64,000 nt of DNA, taken from Christiangramia flava JLT2011 (GTDB taxonomy: Bacteria > Bacteroidota > Bacteroidia > Flavobacteriales > Flavobacteriaceae). This document shows, piece after piece, positions 13,884 through 21,602 of the stretch. The position numbers and the translations under genes are program-made. The DNA lies in NCBI RefSeq assembly GCF_001951155.1, contig NZ_CP016359.1, positions 1,884,001-1,948,000 of the forward strand, in the 5' to 3' direction. Position 1 is the stretch's first letter, and every line of letters begins with the position of its first letter. The notes under the pieces are model-generated. The model did no database searches. It was not told where the DNA came from and saw nothing but the letters and a program-made list of their open reading frames with translations.

Positions 13884-14297
13884 TTAGTGAGGCAATTTTT
13901 TTCTGAGCAATCCGTATAAGAATGTTCCGAAAACAGCTCCGAGAATCACAACCAGAATGGTCACGTAACCAGAACCGGCCAGTACATACATTGGGCCAGG
14001 ACAGGCACCGGCCAGCGCCCAGCCAAGACCAAAAATGATCCCTCCAATAAGGTAGCGGGCAACGCTTTTGTCTTTAGGAGCAAGGCTCATATCACTACCA
14101 TCCAAAGCCTTGATCTTCTTGGCTTTGATGACCTGTACCCCAATAATCCCGATCACAAGTGCTGAACCAATGATACCGTACATGTGAAAACTACCGAACT
14201 GGAACATTTCGTAGATTCGGAACCAGGAGGCAGCTTCCGATTTATACATGATAATTCCGAAGAAAATACCAATGATCAAATAGGTGAAATATCTCAT
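13884..14297 (-). CDS. YeeE/YedE-family sulfur transporter, second half (DUF6691 type)
   Basis: A 137-residue protein with about four membrane helices. It corresponds to the C-terminal half of YeeE/YedE thiosulfate transporters, which in E. coli are single chains. The key Cys motif is present (LGWALAGACPGPMYVLAGSG, about residues 90-110). It lies 3 bp downstream of the gene for the other half, so the two halves probably assemble as a heterodimer. Upstream control is through the GTAAC box at 14905. The substrate (thiosulfate, sulfite or another sulfur species) and the direction of transport are inferred from family and from the sulfide-oxidation neighbours. Confidence 0.85.
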   Translation of the reverse strand: MRYFTYLIIGIFFGIIMYKSEAASWFRIYEMFQFGSFHMYGIIGSALVIGIIGVQVIKAKKIKALDGSDMSLAPKDKSVARYLIGGIIFGLGWALAGACPGPMYVLAGSGYVTILVVILGAVFGTFLYGLLRKKLPH

Positions 14298-14300
14298 ATC

Positions 14301-14858
14301 TTAAAATATTAATGGGTACAAAAAATGGATCATGAAAAGACCCCCTATAAAAAAGCCAATTACTGCGATCAGGGAAGGCAACTGCAGGTTGCTCAGTCCT
14401 GAAATGGCATGTCCAGACGTACAACCTCCGGCATACCTTGCGCCAAAGCCTACCAACAGGCCACCAATGAAAAGAATGGCAATGTTAAAAGGATTGGTGA
14501 GGACTTCTGTCGCGAATAATTCTGGCGGAAGGTAACTTTTCCCGGCACTTGTAATACCATAATCGTTCGCCAGCTGGCTTGCGATTTCCGGGTTGATCTC
14601 CACTACGTTGTTGCTCATAAAATGCGCGGCTACAAATCCGCCGATTATGGCTCCCAAAACCACTGTAAGATTCCATCTTTCCGCTTTCCAGTCGAATTTA
14701 AAGAAATCGGCTTTGTTTCCGGCGCCAATGGCTGCACAGGCAGTTCTCAGGTTGGAAGACATCCCGAATTGTTTTCCAACGAACAGGAGCAGGAACATGA
14801 CTAAGGCAATAAGCGGCCCGGAAATATACCACGGCCATGGATCTGTTATCAAATTCAT
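14301..14858 (-). CDS. YeeE/YedE-family sulfur transporter, first half
   Basis: A 185-residue membrane protein with about five hydrophobic segments and the family motif ARYAGGCTSGHAISGLSNLQ near residue 140, whose Cys is the sulfur-handling residue in characterised YeeE proteins. A further Cys sits in LRTACAAIGAG near residue 40. It pairs with the gene 3 bp downstream to make the equivalent of one full-length transporter. It heads the operon: a GTAAC-N4-GTTAC palindrome (14905-14918) and a -7 box (14875-14882) lie directly upstream, leaving a leader of about 12 nt. Confidence 0.87.
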   Translation of the reverse strand: MNLITDPWPWYISGPLIALVMFLLLFVGKQFGMSSNLRTACAAIGAGNKADFFKFDWKAERWNLTVVLGAIIGGFVAAHFMSNNVVEINPEIASQLANDYGITSAGKSYLPPELFATEVLTNPFNIAILFIGGLLVGFGARYAGGCTSGHAISGLSNLQLPSLIAVIGFFIGGLFMIHFLYPLIF

Positions 14859-14874
14859 ATCAATTATTTTGGCA

Positions 14875-14882
14875 CAAATATG
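14875..14882 (-). promoter_or_regulatory. -7 box of the YeeE/YedE operon
   Basis: Minus-strand CATATTTG, one mismatch from TAnnTTTG. Its centre is exactly 33 bp from the centre of the palindrome at 14905-14918, the spacing shared by all five sites of the region. Confidence 0.6.
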
Positions 14883-14904
14883 CTGATTTTTTAAGCTTCA
14901 TACG

Positions 14905-14918
14905 GTAACAAAAGTTAC
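14905..14918. promoter_or_regulatory. Operator site A, GTAAC-N4-GTTAC (YeeE/YedE promoter)
   Basis: A perfect inverted repeat GTAAC-AAAA-GTTAC centred about 53 bp upstream of the first YeeE/YedE start. Relative to the presumed transcription start it is near -41, where Crp/Fnr-type activators bind at class II promoters. Confidence 0.7.
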
Positions 14919-14948
14919 ATCGCAGGCTGGCGAGCTTTGGTAGTGGTG

Positions 14949-15560
14949 CTATTTTCCTGTTTTCACCCCTACAAACCTGATCACGCAGCCCTCACCCTGA
15001 TGGTGTTTTCCTTCGGAAAGTTCAACCAGTTCTTCCCGGAGTAAATTGAACTGAAGACCGGGAAATTCTGATTTTACTTCCGGGATGGAATACAGCATGG
15101 CTTCTTTTTTGGGTCCTCCGGAAGTTCTGCCGAGCTGGGATTTGGCAAAAGCTTCGAAAATTACCGTGCCGCCGGGCTTCAGAAATTTCAGCAGGTGCTG
15201 ATTGGCATTTTTCCGAATTTCAGCCGGAAAATGCGCATAACTGAAAGCGATGACATCAAATTTTTCAGCCGACTCAAATTCCGCCGCATTCTGAACCTGA
15301 AAGTCTACCGAGACCTCGTTTTTAGAAGCCAGTTGCGTGGCCTTTTTCATTCCCTCTTCGGAAATATCGAAAGCAGTGACCTTCCACCCGTTTTTAGCGG
15401 CGTAAACAGCATTTCTGCCTTCCCCGTCTGCCGGTAATAAGATACTGCCGGGTTGCAGTTTTTCCAGTTGCTCTTGTAGAAAAAGGTTGGGAGTAATCCC
15501 GTAAATATATTCCGAGGCGGCGTAGCGCTCATTCCAGAACTCTTGTGCATCAGTGGTCAT
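14949..15560 (-). CDS. Class I SAM-dependent methyltransferase (TehB/thiol-methyltransferase-like)
   Basis: A 203-residue single-domain methyltransferase. SAM-binding features are LLPADGEGRNAVYAAKNG (motif I region, about residues 41-58) and FDISEEGM (the acidic end of strand 2). The N-terminus, EFWNERYAASEYIYG, is typical of small bacterial tellurite or thiol methyltransferases. In a sulfide-oxidation locus a thiol or sulfide acceptor would fit, but no substrate can be read from the sequence. It has its own -7 box (15601-15608) and no GTAAC palindrome, and the SQR terminator separates it from the upstream gene, so it may not belong to the same regulon. Confidence 0.8.
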   Translation of the reverse strand: MTTDAQEFWNERYAASEYIYGITPNLFLQEQLEKLQPGSILLPADGEGRNAVYAAKNGWKVTAFDISEEGMKKATQLASKNEVSVDFQVQNAAEFESAEKFDVIAFSYAHFPAEIRKNANQHLLKFLKPGGTVIFEAFAKSQLGRTSGGPKKEAMLYSIPEVKSEFPGLQFNLLREELVELSEGKHHQGEGCVIRFVGVKTGK

Positions 15561-15600
15561 AAATAGAAAATTGTATGTTGGTTTTCCAGTGATCTGTCTC

Positions 15601-15608
15601 CAAAAATA
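15601..15608 (-). promoter_or_regulatory. -7 box of the methyltransferase gene
   Basis: Minus-strand TATTTTTG matches TAnnTTTG exactly and would give a leader of about 36 nt before the ATG at 15560. It lies downstream of the SQR terminator. Confidence 0.45.
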
Positions 15609-15638
15609 AACCCGACTAACATAAATTTTTAGAAAAAA

Positions 15639-15666
15639 GAAGGTTGCAGTACAAACCGCAACCTTC
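15639..15666 (-). terminator. Terminator of the SQR gene
   Basis: Stem GAAGGTTGC (15639-15647) with GCAACCTTC (15658-15666), loop of 10 nt, followed on the minus strand by a T-rich tract (TTTTTTCT). It lies 21 bp beyond the SQR stop. Confidence 0.75.
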
Positions 15667-15686
15667 CAGTTAAGTAGAGTTAGTAG

Positions 15687-16994
15687 TTATACTTCTTTGC
15701 CTTTTAGCATTTTGTTCCAGTAAAGGTATGGAAGACCATATTTTTTAAGGATCCACAGTCTCCAGTGTTCTTTGGAACTGTCTTTTATCAGGAGCTGTTT
15801 TAGTTTTGGATCGGGTTTGAAATTCTGGTCGTAATCAAATTCGGCCAGTACCATTTTGCCATAATCGGTTACCAGCGGGCAGGAAGAATATCCGTTGTAA
15901 GACAGGCTCCCAATGCGATCCTGTTGCATCAACAGGTCTATATTGTCTACCACGATGGGCACCTGTTTCCTGATTGCGGCCCCGGTTTTGGCAGTGGGCA
16001 GTCCCGCTACATCCCCAAGACTGAAAATATTGGGATATTTGCGATGTTGCAGGCTGTGCTTGTCTACATCTACCCAGCCGGCCTCGTTCACCAGTGAGGA
16101 TTCGCGCACGAAAGCAGGAGCAACACTTGGCGGCGCGGTGTGCATCATATCGTAATGGATCCCGTACCGGCCGTTTTTCACGCTTACTTTAACATCTTTA
16201 TAATTATAGACGAAATTTTTGTCGATTTTCACCGTATCGGTTTCTTCGGAACGAAGGATGCAGCCGCCTGCTTCCGGTTGTTTGACCAGTTCGTACCAGG
16301 CGATCTGGTTCTTGGCGTCCACTTCAACCAGTTTATGGAAAAACCTCAGGTTGATATCTTTCCTGTCAATAATGTTCATTAAGGTTTTGGCGATCTCTTT
16401 CACTCCGAAAATGATCGTTCCCGGAGTGGCAAAGACGATATTGGTTTTCGAGCGAACACCACTTTTTCTGAAATAACTTTCCGCCAGGTACATGATCTTC
16501 TGCGGCGCGCCACCACATTTAATGGGTGTTGCAGGCTGCGTAAAAAGCGCGGTCCCGCCTTTGAAATTTTTCAGGACTTTCCAGGTGTGTTCAGGATCGG
16601 TATAATTGCTGCAAACCACGCCTTTGTCCATAGCTTCTCCCAGGCCGGGAATCAGACTGTAATCGTATGTGAGTCCTGGCGCCACTACGAGGTAATCATA
16701 AGAAATATCGCCGCTGCTGGCGGTATGTACGAGGTTGTTTTCTGGGTCGAAGCCGGTTGCTTTATCTTTGATCCATTCTGCCCCTTTCGGGATGACCTTG
16801 GACATTGGTTTCGCCGTCTTCTTATAATCAAAAGTTCCGGCGCCTACGAGTGTCCATGCCGGCTGGTAATAATGGGTGTCTGCCGGTTCGATAATGGCGA
16901 CACTATTTGTCTTTTTTTGCCTGAGTAGTTGTGCTGCGGTCATGATGCCGGCTGTGCCGCCCCCTATGATGAGCACTTGAAATTTAGTTGCCAT
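15687..16994 (-). CDS. sqr: Sulfide:quinone oxidoreductase, type II (SQOR-like)
   Basis: A 435-residue FAD enzyme that oxidises sulfide, reduces quinone and hands the sulfane sulfur to an acceptor thiol. The FAD-binding GGGTAG lies at residues 11-16 (LIIGGGTAGIMTA). Both redox cysteines of the type II (mitochondrial SQOR-like) group are present: Cys160 in IKCGGAPQKIMYL and Cys372 in SSCPLVTDYGKMVLAEFDY. It is the central gene of the locus: the CstB-like enzyme further along would process the persulfide it makes. The promoter carries palindrome site B (17043-17056) and a -7 box 33 bp away; a terminator follows the stop. Confidence 0.9.
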   Translation of the reverse strand: MATKFQVLIIGGGTAGIMTAAQLLRQKKTNSVAIIEPADTHYYQPAWTLVGAGTFDYKKTAKPMSKVIPKGAEWIKDKATGFDPENNLVHTASSGDISYDYLVVAPGLTYDYSLIPGLGEAMDKGVVCSNYTDPEHTWKVLKNFKGGTALFTQPATPIKCGGAPQKIMYLAESYFRKSGVRSKTNIVFATPGTIIFGVKEIAKTLMNIIDRKDINLRFFHKLVEVDAKNQIAWYELVKQPEAGGCILRSEETDTVKIDKNFVYNYKDVKVSVKNGRYGIHYDMMHTAPPSVAPAFVRESSLVNEAGWVDVDKHSLQHRKYPNIFSLGDVAGLPTAKTGAAIRKQVPIVVDNIDLLMQQDRIGSLSYNGYSSCPLVTDYGKMVLAEFDYDQNFKPDPKLKQLLIKDSSKEHWRLWILKKYGLPYLYWNKMLKGKEV

Positions 16995-17012
16995 GGTTGT
17001 GAATTTAGATAT

Positions 17013-17020
17013 TAAAGATA
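17013..17020 (-). promoter_or_regulatory. -7 box of the SQR gene
   Basis: Minus-strand TATCTTTA, matching TAnnTTT. Its centre is 33 bp from the centre of site B. The leader to the ATG at 16994 would be about 15 nt. Confidence 0.55.
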
Positions 17021-17042
17021 AGCCTCAGGGCTTAAATTTCCG

Positions 17043-17056
17043 GTAACATTGGTTAC
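17043..17056. promoter_or_regulatory. Operator site B, GTAAC-N4-GTTAC (SQR promoter)
   Basis: A perfect inverted repeat GTAAC-ATTG-GTTAC centred 55 bp upstream of the SQR start, in the gap between SQR and the end of the racemase gene. Confidence 0.7.
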
Positions 17057-17091
17057 ACTACAGCGGTTATAACTCTCTGTATTAAGCGCGA

Positions 17092-17778
17092 TTATATTTT
17101 TCCGGTGATAAAATCAGCAGCCATTTTCGCATGTAAATCGGTAGTGGAAAGTAGCGGAATATCATAAGCCACATTTTGGAAAAGAATAGGCAGTTCGGTG
17201 CATCCTAAAATAATACCATCGGCGCCACGAGCTTTCAGGAGGTCCATCTGGTTCAGGAAGAATTTTCTGCTTTCCTCCGTGAATTGGCCCTGTGTTAATT
17301 CGCAGGAAACATAATCGTGAGCAGTAGACAGGCAGTGAGCTTCCGGGATCAGGGTATTGATGCCAAAATCTTCTTTTAGGATCTTCGGAATAAAACCTTT
17401 GGTCATCGTGGGTTTATTTCCCAGCAGTCCCAAAGTTTTTAGACCAAGACTTTTGGCTTCGGCTCCAGTCGCAGAGGCGATATGCAGAATGGGGATATTG
17501 ATCTTCGGTTGCACGTAATCATAGACCAGATGCGGTGTGTTCGCGCAGATTACAATAGCTTGAGCGCCTGCTTTTTCCAGCATCTGGCTTGTTTGCAGGT
17601 AAGCTGCGTTGATCTTTTCAAAATCCTGGGAACGCATTAGTTCGATATTTTCGCTGTATACCAGCATAGGCGGATTTTTTGCCGTTCCGATCTCTTTTTG
17701 CACCAGTTCATTGATCAGTTTATAATAAACTATGGTCGAATGATAGGAGGTGCCGCCAATTAACCCGATTTTTTTCAT
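17092..17778 (-). CDS. Aspartate/glutamate racemase family protein
   Basis: A 228-residue cofactor-independent racemase-fold protein. Both catalytic cysteines are present: Cys78 in IVICANTPH and Cys193 in IILGCTELPIL. The N-terminus KKIGLIGGTSYHSTIVYYK is typical of YgeA/RacX-like members, whose substrates are often broad. It lies 30 bp downstream of the rhodanese gene on the same strand and is probably co-transcribed with it from the site C promoter. Why a racemase sits in a sulfide regulon is unclear; D-amino-acid supply and an unknown sulfur amino acid substrate are both possible. Confidence 0.85.
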   Translation of the reverse strand: MKKIGLIGGTSYHSTIVYYKLINELVQKEIGTAKNPPMLVYSENIELMRSQDFEKINAAYLQTSQMLEKAGAQAIVICANTPHLVYDYVQPKINIPILHIASATGAEAKSLGLKTLGLLGNKPTMTKGFIPKILKEDFGINTLIPEAHCLSTAHDYVSCELTQGQFTEESRKFFLNQMDLLKARGADGIILGCTELPILFQNVAYDIPLLSTTDLHAKMAADFITGKI

Positions 17779-17808
17779 TAAAAAGATATTTAAGGTCCAA
17801 AGCTGTTG

Positions 17809-18144
17809 CTAATAATTACCAATACCGCCCTGCAGGTCATAGATCTCTGTAAAACCTTCCTGCTTCAGTAATCTTGCGGCTTTCTGGCTGCGGTTTCCGG
17901 AACGGCAATACAGGTAAAGCGGCTTGTTTTTGTCGAGTTTCTTAACGCCGTTCAGCAGCTGTTGTGGCTGAAAAAAATCCAGGTTTACCGCGTTTTTGAT
18001 CGCGCCCTGGCTAAATTCAGCTTTCGTACGAACATCTATCAACTGCACTTTTTTGTTTTGTACCGCATCTCTGAACGCTTCCGGGGAAAGAACCCTGATC
18101 GTATCATCCTGTACTCCTGTTCCAAATAACCTGTTCAAGAACAT
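17809..18144 (-). CDS. Single-domain rhodanese (sulfurtransferase)
   Basis: A 111-residue rhodanese domain with the active-site loop YCRSGNRS (catalytic Cys80) and the usual LIDVRTKAEFSQGAI strand near residue 35. There is no clear signal peptide, so it is likely cytoplasmic. It would take sulfane sulfur from the persulfide pool made by SQR and pass it to another thiol or to sulfite. It heads a two-gene unit with the racemase. Its promoter has palindrome site C and a -7 box with the same 33-bp spacing as its neighbours. Confidence 0.88.
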   Translation of the reverse strand: MFLNRLFGTGVQDDTIRVLSPEAFRDAVQNKKVQLIDVRTKAEFSQGAIKNAVNLDFFQPQQLLNGVKKLDKNKPLYLYCRSGNRSQKAARLLKQEGFTEIYDLQGGIGNY

Positions 18145-18178
18145 ATTTTTTAAATTTTAGTTACTACTTAGTTACCGG

Positions 18179-18186
18179 TAAAAGTA
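18179..18186 (-). promoter_or_regulatory. -7 box of the rhodanese-racemase unit
   Basis: Minus-strand TACTTTTA, matching TAnnTTT, centred 33 bp from site C. The leader to the rhodanese start would be about 30 nt and contains the palindrome TTACCGGTAA (18172-18181, overlapping the box). Confidence 0.55.
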
Positions 18187-18208
18187 CTCTGTAAGACTGA
18201 TCCTGGCA

Positions 18209-18222
18209 GTAACCTGTGTTAC
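18209..18222. promoter_or_regulatory. Operator site C, GTAAC-N4-GTTAC (rhodanese promoter)
   Basis: A perfect inverted repeat GTAAC-CTGT-GTTAC centred 71 bp upstream of the rhodanese start. The longer distance to the start codon comes from a longer leader; the distance to the -7 box is unchanged. Confidence 0.7.
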
Positions 18223-18231
18223 GTTTGAGCA

Positions 18232-18346
18232 TGAAAAAAGCGGCAGAGCTGCCGCTTTTATTCTAACCATTTAAATAAAACTACATCAATAATCACAACG
18301 ACAGTTGCTAAGTAAAAATCTATTTTTTCGCAGGTCTTTTAATTAT
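18232..18346 (-). ncRNA. Predicted small transcript (about 115 nt), sRNA or micro-protein mRNA
   Basis: No annotated-size gene lies here, yet the minus strand has a complete transcription unit: operator site D (18381-18394), a -7 box (18351-18358) at the shared 33-bp spacing, and a strong intrinsic terminator (18236-18259). The product would be about 115 nt. A stop-free frame of 25 codons runs from 18338 to a TAA at 18260-18258 and encodes a hydrophobic stretch, LATVVVIIDVVLFKWLE, ending right at the terminator stem. There is no ATG; the only standard start is a GTG at 18296 giving 12 residues. It could be a regulatory RNA or encode a tiny membrane peptide. Its existence is inferred from signals only. 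Confidence 0.5.
18236..18259 (-). terminator. Intrinsic terminator of the predicted small transcript
   Basis: AAAAGCGGCAG (18236-18246) pairs with CTGCCGCTTTT (18249-18259). On the minus strand the stem ends in a run of six T. No protein gene on this strand ends nearby, so it needs a small transcript to explain it. Confidence 0.8.
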
Positions 18347-18350
18347 GACG

Positions 18351-18358
18351 TAAATTTA
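18351..18358. promoter_or_regulatory. -7 box TAAATTTA, palindromic, possibly bidirectional
   Basis: TAAATTTA reads the same on both strands and fits TAnnTTT both ways. On the minus strand it is 33 bp from site D and would drive the small transcript. On the plus strand it would start a message near 18364 for the methyltransferase at 18411, with site D lying in the transcribed leader. Confidence 0.5.
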
Positions 18359-18380
18359 AGCAGCAAAAATCACTGCTACA

Positions 18381-18394
18381 GCAACTCGTGTTAC
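18381..18394. promoter_or_regulatory. Operator site D, GCAAC-N4-GTTAC
   Basis: One mismatch from the palindrome (GCAAC-TCGT-GTTAC). It is only 17 bp before the methyltransferase start, too close to activate that gene, but is at the activating distance for the minus-strand promoter. It could repress the methyltransferase while activating the small transcript. Confidence 0.6.
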
Positions 18395-18410
18395 ACAAAA
18401 CCCCCGTCTT

Positions 18411-19001
18411 ATGAAATTTCAGGATTCTTTGGATCTCTTCGGAAATGTGGATATCTATGTCATTGACCAGATACTGAAGGGACGTTATCAGCAAACCGAG
18501 ACCATTCTCGACGCCGGGTGTGGGGAGGGCCGAAACCTGAAATGGTTCTACCGGAATAATTTTACGATCTACGGAATGGATCTGGACCCGGAAAGACTGA
18601 AAATGGCCAAAGTTCAGTATCCCGATTTTTCTGATAATTTCACGGAAGGAAGGCTGGACGAGCTGCCCTACGAAAACGAGTTTTTTCAACACGTGCTTTG
18701 CTGCGCCGTGCTGCATTTCGCTGAAGACCAGCAGCACTTCAGAAATATGTTCGCGGAGCTGGTGAGGGTTTTAAAACCCGGTGGGAGTTTGCTTATTCGG
18801 GTGGCTTCCAATATTGGTCTCGACGGGAAAAGTCCTGAAGTTCAGGATCCGAAGAACAAGAAAAGCGCGGGCTATTTCATCACACGTAATAATATTTCCG
18901 AAATATTGACCAGCTTTGAACTGGAGTTGATCGAGCCTGTTAAAACCACCAACGTGCAGGATGTCCGGGCCATGACCACCCTGGTTTTCAGAAAAAAATA
19001 A
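18411..19001 (+). CDS. Class I SAM-dependent methyltransferase
   Basis: A 196-residue methyltransferase of the Methyltransf_11/UbiE-like type. SAM-binding motif I is ILDAGCGEGRNLKWF (about residues 32-46), the acidic end of strand 2 is GMDLDPERLKMA, and the VLRVLKPGGSLLIRV-like post-motif (LVRVLKPGGSLLIRV) is near residue 118. No substrate is evident. It is the only plus-strand gene in the sulfur region and starts 17 bp after operator site D, so binding there would block rather than activate it. A bidirectional terminator follows its stop. Confidence 0.82.
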   Translation: MKFQDSLDLFGNVDIYVIDQILKGRYQQTETILDAGCGEGRNLKWFYRNNFTIYGMDLDPERLKMAKVQYPDFSDNFTEGRLDELPYENEFFQHVLCCAVLHFAEDQQHFRNMFAELVRVLKPGGSLLIRVASNIGLDGKSPEVQDPKNKKSAGYFITRNNISEILTSFELELIEPVKTTNVQDVRAMTTLVFRKK

Positions 19002-19028
19002 AGGGCAACCTTTCAGTCGCCCTTTTTA
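19000..19028. terminator. Bidirectional terminator between methyltransferase and CstB-like gene
   Basis: AAAGGGC (19000-19006) pairs with GCCCTTT (19019-19025), with T-rich flanks on both strands. It sits between convergent genes. Confidence 0.65.
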
Positions 19029-19046
19029 AATTTGAATGATTGTTTA

Positions 19047-20456
19047 TTATAATGTCGAAGGACATACGTAATCTGAAGTTTTCACCCCGGCTTCTTTAAT
19101 AGCCTTGAAACCTCCCTGTACATCCACCAGGTTGTGAATTCCACGGCTTTTCAGGATGGAGGCCGCGATCATGCTTCGATAACCGCCGGCACAATGCACA
19201 TAGAAATCGGTGTTTTCAGGATATTCTGCTAAATGATCGTTGATCTCTGAAAGAGAGGTATGATTCGCATCGATCACATGTTCTGAAAGGTATTCGCCAG
19301 GTTTCCGAACATCAAAAACAGGAACATCTTCCGCATCTTTGATCGCTTTGAATTCGGTTGCCGGAATAGATTTAACGGTATCGATCTCTTTACCGGAATT
19401 TCTCCAGTTTTCGAATCCGCCTTCGAGATATCCCAGCGTATTGTCAAAACCAACTCGCGAGAGACGAGTGATCGCTTCCTCGATTCGGTCTTGATCGCCT
19501 ATCAAAAGGATTGGCTGCTGCACATCCCTGATGAGGTCTCCAACCCATGGGGCAAAACTTCCGTCCAGCCCGATAAAAATAGATCCGGGCACATGGCCTT
19601 TTGCAAATTCATGCTGGTGACGAATGTCCAGCATCACGGCGCCAGTTTCATTAGCGGCAGCTTCAAAAGCATCTGGAGACAGGGCAACCTGGCCTTTTTC
19701 CATCACTTCTTCAATATTCTTATATCCTTCCTTGTTCATTTTCACGTTCATCGGGAAATAGGCTGGTGGCGGTAAAAGACCATCGGTTACTTCCTTGATG
19801 AATTCTTCTTTGGTCATATCGGCACGCAAGGCGTAATTCATTTCTTTCTGATGGCCCAGCGTGTCTACGGTTTCTTTCATCATGTTCTTTCCGCAGGCAG
19901 AACCGGCACCGTGCGCGGGATACACCATCAAATCATCAGAAAGCGGCATGATCTTTTCGCGAAGACTATCGAACAAGATTCCGGCAAGGTCTTCCTGGGT
20001 CATACTGGCTGCTTTTTGTGCCAGGTCTGGCCGGCCCACATCACCAAGAAACAGGGTGTCACCGGTAAAGATCGCGTGATCATTTCCGTTTTCATCCTTC
20101 AGAAGATAGGTGGTGCTTTCCATGGTGTGACCCGGGGTATGCAAGACTTTGAAGGTGATATTTCCTAATTGAAATTCCTGGTTGTCTTTAGCAATAATGG
20201 CGTCGAAATCTGGATTGGCGTTAGGGCCGTAAATGATAGGCGCACCGGTCTTTTCAGAAAGTGTGACGTGCCCGGAAACGAAATCGGCGTGAAAATGGGT
20301 TTCGAAAATGTATTTGATCCTGGCTCCGGCTTCTTCAGCTTTTTCAATGTACGGCTGAACTTCACGAAGCGGGTCGATAATGGCTACTTCTCCGTTGCTT
20401 TCAATATAATAAGCACCCTGGGCGAGGCAACCGGTATAAATTTGTTCAATTTTCAT
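19047..20456 (-). CDS. CstB-like persulfide dioxygenase-sulfurtransferase
   Basis: A 469-residue three-domain enzyme. Residues 1 to about 245 are a metallo-beta-lactamase fold of the ETHE1 persulfide dioxygenase type, with THFHADFVSGH (His54, His56, Asp58) and HTPGHTMEST near 109. Two rhodanese domains follow, at about 262-355 and 365-465. The second has an active-site loop with Cys422 (HCAGGYRSM). In the first, the corresponding loop reads LLIGDQDRIEEA with no Cys, so it is a pseudo-rhodanese. The same architecture is known from S. aureus CstB. It would turn low-molecular-weight persulfide into sulfite and thiosulfate. It lies downstream of tauE on the same strand (gap 97 bp) and shares its promoter. 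Confidence 0.88.
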   Translation of the reverse strand: MKIEQIYTGCLAQGAYYIESNGEVAIIDPLREVQPYIEKAEEAGARIKYIFETHFHADFVSGHVTLSEKTGAPIIYGPNANPDFDAIIAKDNQEFQLGNITFKVLHTPGHTMESTTYLLKDENGNDHAIFTGDTLFLGDVGRPDLAQKAASMTQEDLAGILFDSLREKIMPLSDDLMVYPAHGAGSACGKNMMKETVDTLGHQKEMNYALRADMTKEEFIKEVTDGLLPPPAYFPMNVKMNKEGYKNIEEVMEKGQVALSPDAFEAAANETGAVMLDIRHQHEFAKGHVPGSIFIGLDGSFAPWVGDLIRDVQQPILLIGDQDRIEEAITRLSRVGFDNTLGYLEGGFENWRNSGKEIDTVKSIPATEFKAIKDAEDVPVFDVRKPGEYLSEHVIDANHTSLSEINDHLAEYPENTDFYVHCAGGYRSMIAASILKSRGIHNLVDVQGGFKAIKEAGVKTSDYVCPSTL

Positions 20457-20553
20457 ATTCGTATTTTTTTGAGGGAGAACTTCTTCAGCAATTTCAGCTG
20501 AATCATTCTACAGTTTTTAAAGTTAAAAAGATTATAGCGTTTTTTGGTAAGGT

Positions 20554-21357
20554 TTATTTCCACACCAGTTCTTTTGTTAAAATATATACGGCCATGACCA
20601 GCACGAACCAGCCAAAGGCTTTTTTCAGTTTTTTTCCGTCGATAAATTTATTGAGCCACACTCCTATAAAGATCCCGATGACGGAAAGCGCGGTGAAAGA
20701 GATCAGGAAAACCCAGTCTATGTCCATATTCTGAACATCCCCGATGAAGCCGATCAGCGACTTAATGGCGATGATGAATAAGGAAGTGGCCACAGCTTTT
20801 TTCATGGGTAATTTCGCCAGGAGTACCAGTGCCGGTATGATCAGGAAACCGCCGCCGGCACCTACGATCCCGGTAATGGTTCCCACCACGAGGCCTTCGA
20901 TCACGATAATCGGGTAGTTATAAGAGACTTCCTGCTCTTCGTCATTTTCTTTGCGCTTGTTTCTGATCATGGAGATAGACGCCAGCACCATGATGATAGC
21001 AAAGAACAGCATGATGGCCAGGTTCTTTGTGATCATAATTCCTGCGACCTGGAAAAGGTTTTCCGGGAGTGCGGGTATCAGGAAAGCACGGGTAAGGTAC
21101 ACCGCGATAAATGCGGGAATGGCGAAGATGATCGCTGTGCGAAAGTCTACCATCCCTTTGAACATATTTCTGATGGCGCCTACCAGCGAGGTTGTTCCCA
21201 CCACGAAAAGCGAATAGGCGGTGGCCAGCACAGGGTTTAGTGACAGAGCGTATACCAGGATCGGAACGGTGAGGATGGAACCACCTCCACCAATAAGACC
21301 TAAAGAAAGACCGATGAGGATCGCTCCTAAATAACCAAAGATTTCTACTAATTCCAT
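20554..21357 (-). CDS. TauE/SafE-family sulfite exporter
   Basis: A membrane protein of 267 residues from the ATG at 21357; a TTG at 21378 would add seven residues but would lie at the transcription start. It has about eight hydrophobic segments in two related halves, with GLSLGLIGGGGSILTVPILVYAL near the N-terminus and TGIVGAGGGFLIIPALVLL in the second half, which is the TauE/SafE signature. In cst-type operons such a protein exports sulfite made by persulfide dioxygenase, and the CstB-like gene follows directly. The promoter has the best -7 box of the regulon (21376-21383) and operator site E. Substrate is inferred from context. Confidence 0.88.
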   Translation of the reverse strand: MELVEIFGYLGAILIGLSLGLIGGGGSILTVPILVYALSLNPVLATAYSLFVVGTTSLVGAIRNMFKGMVDFRTAIIFAIPAFIAVYLTRAFLIPALPENLFQVAGIMITKNLAIMLFFAIIMVLASISMIRNKRKENDEEQEVSYNYPIIVIEGLVVGTITGIVGAGGGFLIIPALVLLAKLPMKKAVATSLFIIAIKSLIGFIGDVQNMDIDWVFLISFTALSVIGIFIGVWLNKFIDGKKLKKAFGWFVLVMAVYILTKELVWK

Positions 21358-21375
21358 TTTTAAATTTTGATGGAA

Positions 21376-21383
21376 CAAAAGTA
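21376..21383 (-). promoter_or_regulatory. -7 box of the tauE-cstB-like operon
   Basis: Minus-strand TACTTTTG is an exact TAnnTTTG match, centred 33 bp from site E. Transcription would start near 21371, leaving a leader of about 14 nt. Confidence 0.65.
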
Positions 21384-21405
21384 AATGGCAGAATCAACAG
21401 TTTTG

Positions 21406-21419
21406 GTAACCCTTGTTAC
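21406..21419. promoter_or_regulatory. Operator site E, GTAAC-N4-GTTAC (tauE promoter)
   Basis: A perfect inverted repeat GTAAC-CCTT-GTTAC centred 55 bp upstream of the tauE start and about 41 bp upstream of the presumed transcription start. Confidence 0.7.
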
Positions 21420-21520: not shown

Positions 21521-21602
21521 TACTCGAGGCGGGAATCGAACCCGCACTTCCGAAGAAACTGGATTTTGAATCCAGCGCGTCTACCAATTCCGCCACTCGA
21601 GC
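21521..21602 (-). tRNA. tRNA-Leu (CAA)
   Basis: On the minus strand an 82-nt cloverleaf with acceptor stem GCTCGAG/CTCGAGT (G1-U wobble), discriminator A, anticodon stem CTGGA/TCCAG around loop TTCAAAA (anticodon CAA), an extended variable arm typical of a class II tRNA, and T arm GCGGGTTCGATTCCCGC. CCA is not encoded. Confidence 0.93.

Follow-up and report, generated by a model that had tools for sequence, protein, structure and literature searches.

Which protein controls a group of sulfide-related genes in Christiangramia flava JLT2011, and to which signal does it respond? The question is raised by a stretch of 64,000 nucleotides (contig NZ_CP016359.1, positions 1,884,001 to 1,948,000; hereafter the window), in which five palindromes of the form GTAAC-N4-GTTAC stand ahead of a YeeE/YedE-type sulfur transporter gene pair, the gene of sulfide:quinone oxidoreductase (SQR), a rhodanese-racemase gene pair, a predicted small transcript, and a TauE/SafE exporter gene with its neighbor. 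These sites probably belong to a sulfide/sulfane-sulfur regulon that is switched on, in class II fashion, by two paralogous Crp/Fnr activators with a cysteine cassette, here termed REG_A and REG_B. Herein, REG_A and REG_B would bind the palindrome centered near -40/-41, beside the -33 region, and the bound regulator would activate transcription from a TAnnTTTG -7 box. The sensor would most likely be a cassette of Cys77 with Cys83/84 in place of the cAMP phosphate-binding cassette; persulfide or polysulfide from the SQR reaction would react with these cysteines and so switch DNA binding. The computation shows the sites, their spacing and targets, the conservation of sites and cysteines, and the co-occurrence with the regulator, whereas DNA binding, activation over repression, the transcription starts, the operons, and the signal are inferred.

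Spacing of operator and promoter

Four of the five window sites match the palindrome exactly, whereas the fifth, at 18381, carries one mismatch (GCAAC). All five have a -7 box on the minus strand at a center-to-center distance of exactly 33.0 bp, and the boxes read, in site order, CATATTTG, TATCTTTA, TACTTTTA, TAAATTTA, and TACTTTTG. The original prediction had described a constant 33 bp between each site and a TAnnTTT(G/A) box; the spacing holds throughout, but the first base of the YeeE/YedE box CATATTTG deviates from that consensus. If one mismatch is tolerated, the window contains six palindrome matches versus 0.72 expected, and none of 100 shuffles reached six; the sixth match, at 1807, has no box at 33 bp. 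The chance of five out of five boxes at one shared distance, with 46 distances allowed, is ~1.6e-8 at the window-wide box rate and ~3.6e-7 at the rate taken from other distances beside real sites, the latter being the fairer background because those flanks are AT-rich.

Across the genome of 4,007,868 bases, 17 exact copies are found versus 12 for a reversed control pattern. Because the number of palindromes lies near or below that of the control, and far below it in some relatives (5 versus 20 in G001 and 4 versus 30 in G018), the bare count was rejected as evidence. The placement of the copies is nonrandom, as had been argued when the spacing was rated above the motif alone. A box with at most one mismatch lies at exactly 33 bp from 14 of the 17 copies, and two more (3740746 and 3755134, ahead of a DUF302 gene and a metallo-beta-lactamase (MBL)-rhodanese gene) have a two-mismatch box at this distance. 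Only the copy at 1103136 is intragenic and without a box, so that the scan for copies outside promoters, many of which would have spoken against the original prediction, turned up one of 17 and leaves that prediction standing. An independent test took the 33-bp distance from the window and applied it to the 13 exact sites elsewhere: 10 carry a box there that deviates by one base or less (binomial 1.6e-14 if the rate at other distances beside real sites serves as background, 3e-17 under the window-wide rate). In addition, one-mismatch sites with perfect boxes occur at 3756995 before a TauE gene and at 1303456 before a DUF983 gene.

The geometry extends to relatives. One genome per species was scanned, yielding 80 loci around relatives of REG_A; L029, whose regulator is identical to REG_A, was dropped from the relative counts, and the remaining 79 loci comprise 1.43 Mb. 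They contain 109 exact palindromes, spread over 48 loci, compared with a mean of 1.24 and a maximum of 9 for 59 other arrangements of the same letters and 0 to 5 copies for each gap length from 0 to 10 other than 4. Of 218 orientations, 105 have a box with at most one mismatch at 33 bp and 15 have one at 32 bp, whereas no other distance between 15 and 69 gives more than 12; counted by site, a box lies at 32 or 33 bp for 105 of the 109. None of the 109 sites lies inside a gene matched to a 39-protein reference set. With the box fixed at 33 and all 256 half-sites of the form h-N6-h' compared in 74 loci, GTAA gives 111 box-bearing copies and the next half-site 21. Close relatives are numerous among the 79 loci; if each lineage is represented by a single locus, the box stands at 33 for 26 of 32 sites from 22 lineages, which were picked by hand with some loci, Saprospiraceae among them, left out. 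A TG directly follows the site in 34 of 104 cases, at a position that would coincide with the -33 element. Chance as the origin of the arrangement was rejected on the spacing statistics of window, genome, and relatives, and the fixed site-to-box spacing that class II activation calls for is present. The position near -41 would follow from the box alone.

Site and regulator also tend to occur together. A composite pattern was defined as the site, 22 bp, and TANNTTTG, with one mismatch allowed. Of the 149 genera that sample the family, 126 have the regulator, and the composite is present in 117 of these 126 genomes versus 4 of the 23 without a regulator (G141, G147, and G148 being counted as match-free by inference). 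Across the phylum (198 genomes), the corresponding counts are 47 of 74 versus 11 of 124. Beyond the family, the composite is present in 28 of 55 genomes with a regulator, and 10 of these 28 have a copy less than 10 kb from the regulator gene. All seven genomes of genus g128 (G127, G195, G336, G340, G320, G308, and G237) have a GTAACATTAGTCAC site with a box, which shares a contig with a more divergent regulator at a distance of 4 to 25 kb. A conserved, genome-wide regulon is well supported.

Candidate regulators and their putative sensor

A PF13545 profile search of the genome returned seven matches, five of them above cut-off. REG_A and REG_B, which share 66% identity, each lie inside one of two further sulfur clusters. 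A single Crp/Fnr-type regulator encoded outside the window had been foreseen, to be sought near a further site; the family and the location stand, since both genes are cluster-encoded outside the window and each adjoins a site, but two paralogs replace the single protein. Membership of the Crp/Fnr superfamily is indicated by PF00027 (37.4 bits, cut-off 27.5) and PF13545 (39 bits, cut-off 27). The predicted fold is a CRP fold that matches CRPs and 3dv8 (mean pLDDT 85), and the best PDB sequence match of the regulator profile is 3DV8, a Crp/Fnr protein of Eubacterium rectale (E 8.1e-25). The regulator of the C. oceanisediminis locus is identical to REG_A. That REG_A and REG_B are the likely regulators of the GTAAC-N4-GTTAC regulon is well supported. 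Because the YeeE pair ahead of REG_A has a site, positive feedback is suggested, and REG_A probably amplifies its own expression.

The DNA-contacting residues agree with the motif. According to Rodionov et al. 2005 (PMC1274295), the HcpR2 motif is GTAACnnnnGTTAC and is linked to a change of Glu181 to Pro, with Ser or Gln at this position in some species. The consensus found here is identical, and the candidates are likewise Crp/Fnr proteins with Glu181 replaced: in the recognition helix S-R-V-V-I-S-R of REG_A and REG_B, Arg180 is retained and Glu181 is Val. Only five of 81 regulators retain Glu181, and exact sites occur in none of these five loci versus 48 of the remaining 74. This split agrees with the published recognition code, but the five loci are few and mostly from Saprospiraceae, and at one of them, L100, a perfect box accompanies a one-mismatch site. 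A search for an altered motif in the five led nowhere, the candidates being too few to define one; near weak boxes of two Saprospiraceae loci (L099:7859 and L102:907), GTGAT-N4-ATCAC is seen, possibly a shifted motif. Another Crp/Fnr gene of C. flava (C1:3564691-3565404, L142:6692-7405) also encodes a recognition helix without Glu181, so its protein stays a possible binder on helix grounds; the nearest exact site is ~176 kb off. A single gene separates it from serine acetyltransferase-like and PALP-family (cysteine synthase-like) genes.

The putative sensor is a pair of cysteines. Cys77 (numbered from the Met of REG_A) is invariant in a 47-sequence alignment, and all 80 regulators that span the segment have Cys77 plus a second cysteine, namely Cys83 and/or Cys84 in 52, Cys90 in 26, and Cys79 in 2; the 81st sequence, from L107, is ended by a contig end and does not reach across it. 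Only columns 77, 83, 84, and 90 hold at least three cysteines among the 81. FNR holds its 4Fe-4S cluster by N-terminal and central cysteines; none of the 81 regulators has an FNR-type N-terminal cysteine cluster. The phosphate-binding cassette of CRP includes E72 and R82. In a profile alignment to CRP (4bh9), Cys77 falls at Ile70, Cys83/Cys84 at Phe76/Glu77, and position 90 at Ser83, while the cAMP cassette is not kept, the Glu72 position being Met-like and R82 being replaced by Lys. 3DV8 has cysteines aligned to Cys77 and Cys83 as well, but differs by Arg-Glu in its recognition helix. In the Cys90-type regulators, mostly of Lutibacter (L066, L069, L071, L074-L076, and others), Cys90 takes the place of Cys83/84, and all 26 of their loci contain a YeeE gene in the stretch examined. 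Because a fixed Cys77 pairs with a partner at one of three positions, a dithiol that reacts with persulfide fits, comparable to the persulfide-reactive C34/C100 pair of BigR (PMC7315123); the cysteine pair may be such a dithiol.

Regulon members, window genes, and small transcripts

Of the 13 exact sites beyond the window, 12 lie in the two further sulfur clusters or ahead of a SoxA/TsdA-like gene; for the genome as a whole, 16 of 17 lie in the three sulfur clusters or ahead of such a gene, two of the 16 without a downstream gene. With transcript membership taken from gene order and strand, the regulon elsewhere includes TauE beside REG_B; DUF302; a fatty-acid hydroxylase followed by an MBL-rhodanese; a small protein with DoxX and DsrE; an MBL-rhodanese with an MFS transporter; a further TauE; a SoxA/TsdA-type cytochrome with OprD and a SoxB-like gene with DsrE, the cytochrome and the SoxB-like protein having one divergent site in common; a small protein followed by TlpA-, DsbD-, and SoxB-like genes; and the YeeE pair with REG_A. 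A second SoxA/TsdA-type cytochrome gene follows a lone site at 767536. The cytochrome bd genes (cydAB) have a site with a box at L023:9409, ~345 nt before the cydA start codon, which would make an unusually long leader. The targets compared with Pfam score above its cut-offs; the SoxA- and SoxB-like homologs do not reach the cut-offs of the NCBIfam SoxA and SoxB models. The set of SQR, persulfide dioxygenase (PDO)/CstB-like, TauE, and YeeE/YedE targets of a sulfide/persulfide regulon is present behind the sites. The sulfide-gene set envisaged at the outset is therefore borne out, and it widens to thiosulfate-type (SoxB/SoxA/TsdA-like) genes and cytochrome bd oxidase.

In the relatives, the genes downstream of oriented promoters are MBL-rhodanese (25), TauE-type (15), YeeE (12), fatty-acid hydroxylase (12), SQR (8), SoxA-type (4), and the regulator itself (4). 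Another 27 are unmatched, among them DUF983, sulfate permease, and YgaP-like proteins, and seven promoters have no open reading frame (ORF) within 400 bp. The DUF983 gene with the same promoter geometry is seen at L140:3457-3500 and in the Maribacter loci L037, L038, L041, and L042, where it stands immediately upstream of the regulator gene.

Within the window (Table 1), Pfam, NCBIfam, and PDB-sequence matches agree with the genes toward which the sites had been said to point. For TauE, the ATG at 21357 is compatible with the promoter, whereas a TTG codon at 21378-21376 falls within the box. A tRNA (21521-21602, minus strand) lies directly past the TauE promoter.

Table 1. Positions of sites, boxes, genes, and predicted transcripts (window coordinates unless a contig or locus is named)
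Feature	Position	Strand	Remark
GTAAC-N4-GTTAC site, YeeE/YedE promoter	14905..14918	-	exact match; box at 33
-7 box CATATTTG, YeeE pair	14875..14882	-	one mismatch to TANNTTTG; box center to start codon 20.5 nt
GTAAC-N4-GTTAC site, SQR promoter	17043..17056	-	exact match; box at 33
-7 box TATCTTTA, SQR promoter	17013..17020	-	
GTAAC-N4-GTTAC site, rhodanese-racemase promoter	18209..18222	-	exact match; box at 33
-7 box TACTTTTA, rhodanese-racemase promoter	18179..18186	-	
One-mismatch site ahead of predicted small transcript	18381..18394	-	weakest of the five
-7 box TAAATTTA, predicted small transcript	18351..18358	-	
GTAAC-N4-GTTAC site, TauE promoter	21406..21419	-	exact match; box at 33
-7 box TACTTTTG, TauE promoter	21376..21383	-	perfect
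YeeE/YedE-type half b (DUF6691)	13884..14297	-	PF04143 and PF20398
YeeE/YedE-type sulfur transporter half a	14301..14858	-	PF04143
SQR	15687..16994	-	mitochondrial SQOR closest among PDB sequences, E 3.6e-108
Asp/Glu racemase family protein	17092..17778	-	PF01177, TIGR00035
Rhodanese, single-domain	17809..18144	-	PF00581
Predicted ~113-nt transcript	18234..18346	-	hairpin and U-run at end; no ORF of at least 80 aa starts before the terminator
MBL with two rhodanese stretches, CstB/PDO-like	19047..20456	-	3tp9 E 5.7e-72, 3r2u E 7.9e-61
TauE/SafE exporter	20554..21357	-	PF01925
REG_A, Crp/Fnr	C1:3750771-3751403 (L026:5772-6404)	-	site 14 bp past stop codon
REG_B, Crp/Fnr	C1:3171894-3172526 (L023:7895-8527)	+	site 4 bp past stop codon
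Predicted 79-nt transcript	L024:806-884 (C1:3180806-3180884)		perfect site (L024:918) and box; GC-rich terminator hairpin
Gene-less promoter	L024:10782-10825		perfect site and box; transcript would be antisense to a PF03458 membrane protein gene

The small transcripts are predictions lacking conservation. For the one proposed behind the 18381 site, the box at 33 bp is confirmed and the transcript itself stays a prediction: its fold has a z of only -1.76, and none of 23 congeners has DNA that matches its region at E 1e-3. As an established RNA, it was rejected on the missing congener match, the weak fold, and the mismatched site. The predicted 79-nt transcript folds strongly (z -5.19), its region is absent from the 23 congeners, and its hairpin adjoins the end of a nitroreductase gene and may be that gene's own terminator. 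A terminator-like hairpin precedes the first ORF of at least 80 aa in 4 of 141 promoter-site pairs, and a search of Rfam at E up to 1 placed only tRNA above the gathering score.

Competing readings and known systems

Several observations weigh against sulfur-responsive class II activation by REG_A and REG_B. Three promoter sites in the genome point at no coding gene, and an exact site is lacking from the stretch examined at 31 of the 79 loci. Co-occurrence is imperfect: the composite is missing from 9 of 126 regulator-bearing genomes and present in 4 of 23 regulator-free ones in the family, and it is missing from 27 of 74 regulator-bearing genomes in the phylum. The reversed control pattern itself occurs in 38 of 149 family genomes, three of them among the 23 regulator-free (hand count), and, in the phylum, in 20 of 74 with and 17 of 124 without a regulator (hand count). 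Genome size confounds these comparisons because regulator-free genomes are often small. Model confidence is lowest in the cysteine loop (pLDDT 62-65), and the cytochrome bd operon in the regulon, as well as DUF983 and one divergent HemN-like gene at Maribacter sites, would also suit a sensor of oxygen or general thiol redox, for which sulfur oxidation is part of a low-oxygen program. Such a sensor is unlikely, as the FNR-type cysteine cluster is absent and sulfide itself raises CydAB in Acinetobacter baumannii (PMC7315123).

Other readings keep parts of the arrangement. An HcpR2-like activator that responds to nitric oxide or nitrosative stress, with the sulfur genes merely as local targets, would explain the identical motif (PMC1274295). 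It is made quite improbable by the lack of a hcp gene, PF03063 having no match in this genome although the same search is positive in 5 of 14 control genomes (relatives were not searched), by Val rather than Pro at residue 181, and by the placement of nearly all exact sites with sulfur genes. Cys77 could instead be a heme ligand, the regulator being a gas or redox sensor like CooA, which uses Cys75, or PgRsp of Porphyromonas gingivalis, which binds heme and was modeled on 3DV8 (PMC6955866), the best sequence match here. This has a low probability: replacement of Cys76 left the heme spectrum of PgRsp unchanged (PMC6955866), and a second cysteine that is always there, at one of three positions, is more in keeping with a dithiol than with a heme pocket. 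The sites might also be repressor operators relieved by cysteine modification, given that a site ending beside the -33 region could obstruct polymerase and that the cysteine-based sulfide sensors CstR, BigR, and SqrR are repressors (for BigR, PMC7315123). Contact with polymerase at class II promoters should keep the spacing constant to the base pair in different lineages, whereas repressors tolerate variable positions; repression is for this reason a rather remote prospect.

Class II activation by REG_A and REG_B leads to a broader proposal, which is put forward tentatively and with slightly less than even confidence: a cysteine-cassette type of Bacteroidota Crp/Fnr subfamily may be a sulfane-sulfur sensor, in which the phosphate cassette has turned into a dithiol switch (Cys77 with Cys83/84, Cys90, or Cys79 by lineage) and which directly activates SQR, PDO, exporters, thiosulfate enzymes, and a few small terminated RNAs. 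The analysis supplies a candidate regulator, an operator, a promoter geometry, and ~20 testable sites. If the sensing step is true, Crp/Fnr joins the protein families proposed as reactive-sulfur sensors, and the natural series of cysteine arrangements and residue-181 changes is useful for both sensing and DNA recognition. Among the matches listed in the open-access literature, no Crp/Fnr sulfide regulon and no sulfide regulator for Bacteroidota appeared, which is not proof of absence.

Among known systems, the cst operon of Staphylococcus aureus similarly places a CstB-like MBL-rhodanese, SQR, and TauE under one sulfur-responsive control. Its CstR is a CsoR-type repressor and BigR belongs to the ArsR family, whereas the regulators here are Crp/Fnr. 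The cst operon is also named in PMC7315123, according to which sulfide raises PDO, SQR, TauE, YeeE/YedE-PDO2, and CydAB in A. baumannii. The target functions of its FisR and BigR regulons (PDO, SQR, and TauE; yeeE-yedE-pdo2; CydAB) are those found here, but control there lies with a sigma-54 activator (FisR) and a persulfide-sensing repressor (BigR), neither being Crp/Fnr (PMC7315123). Because A. baumannii raises the same functions with sulfide, the C. flava regulon is sensible as sulfide detoxification and use plus thiosulfate chemistry. For the latter, the TsdA-SoxB pathway of Erythrobacter flavus (PMC7608252, PMC9426585) offers a parallel, as a SoxA/TsdA-type cytochrome and a SoxB-like protein occur here too; the excerpts of these papers do not mention such regulation, and the homologs here fall under the NCBIfam cut-offs. 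PgRsp resembles the candidates as a Bacteroidota Crp/Fnr protein with a cysteine at 76 and redox phenotypes but differs by binding heme, and the excerpted text describes no sulfur regulon for it (PMC6955866). HcpR2 shares the DNA consensus, yet it has hcp genes as targets and Pro181, as opposed to sulfur genes and Val181 here (PMC1274295). A known motif underlies the regulon, and the putative sulfur-sensing step is its interesting part.

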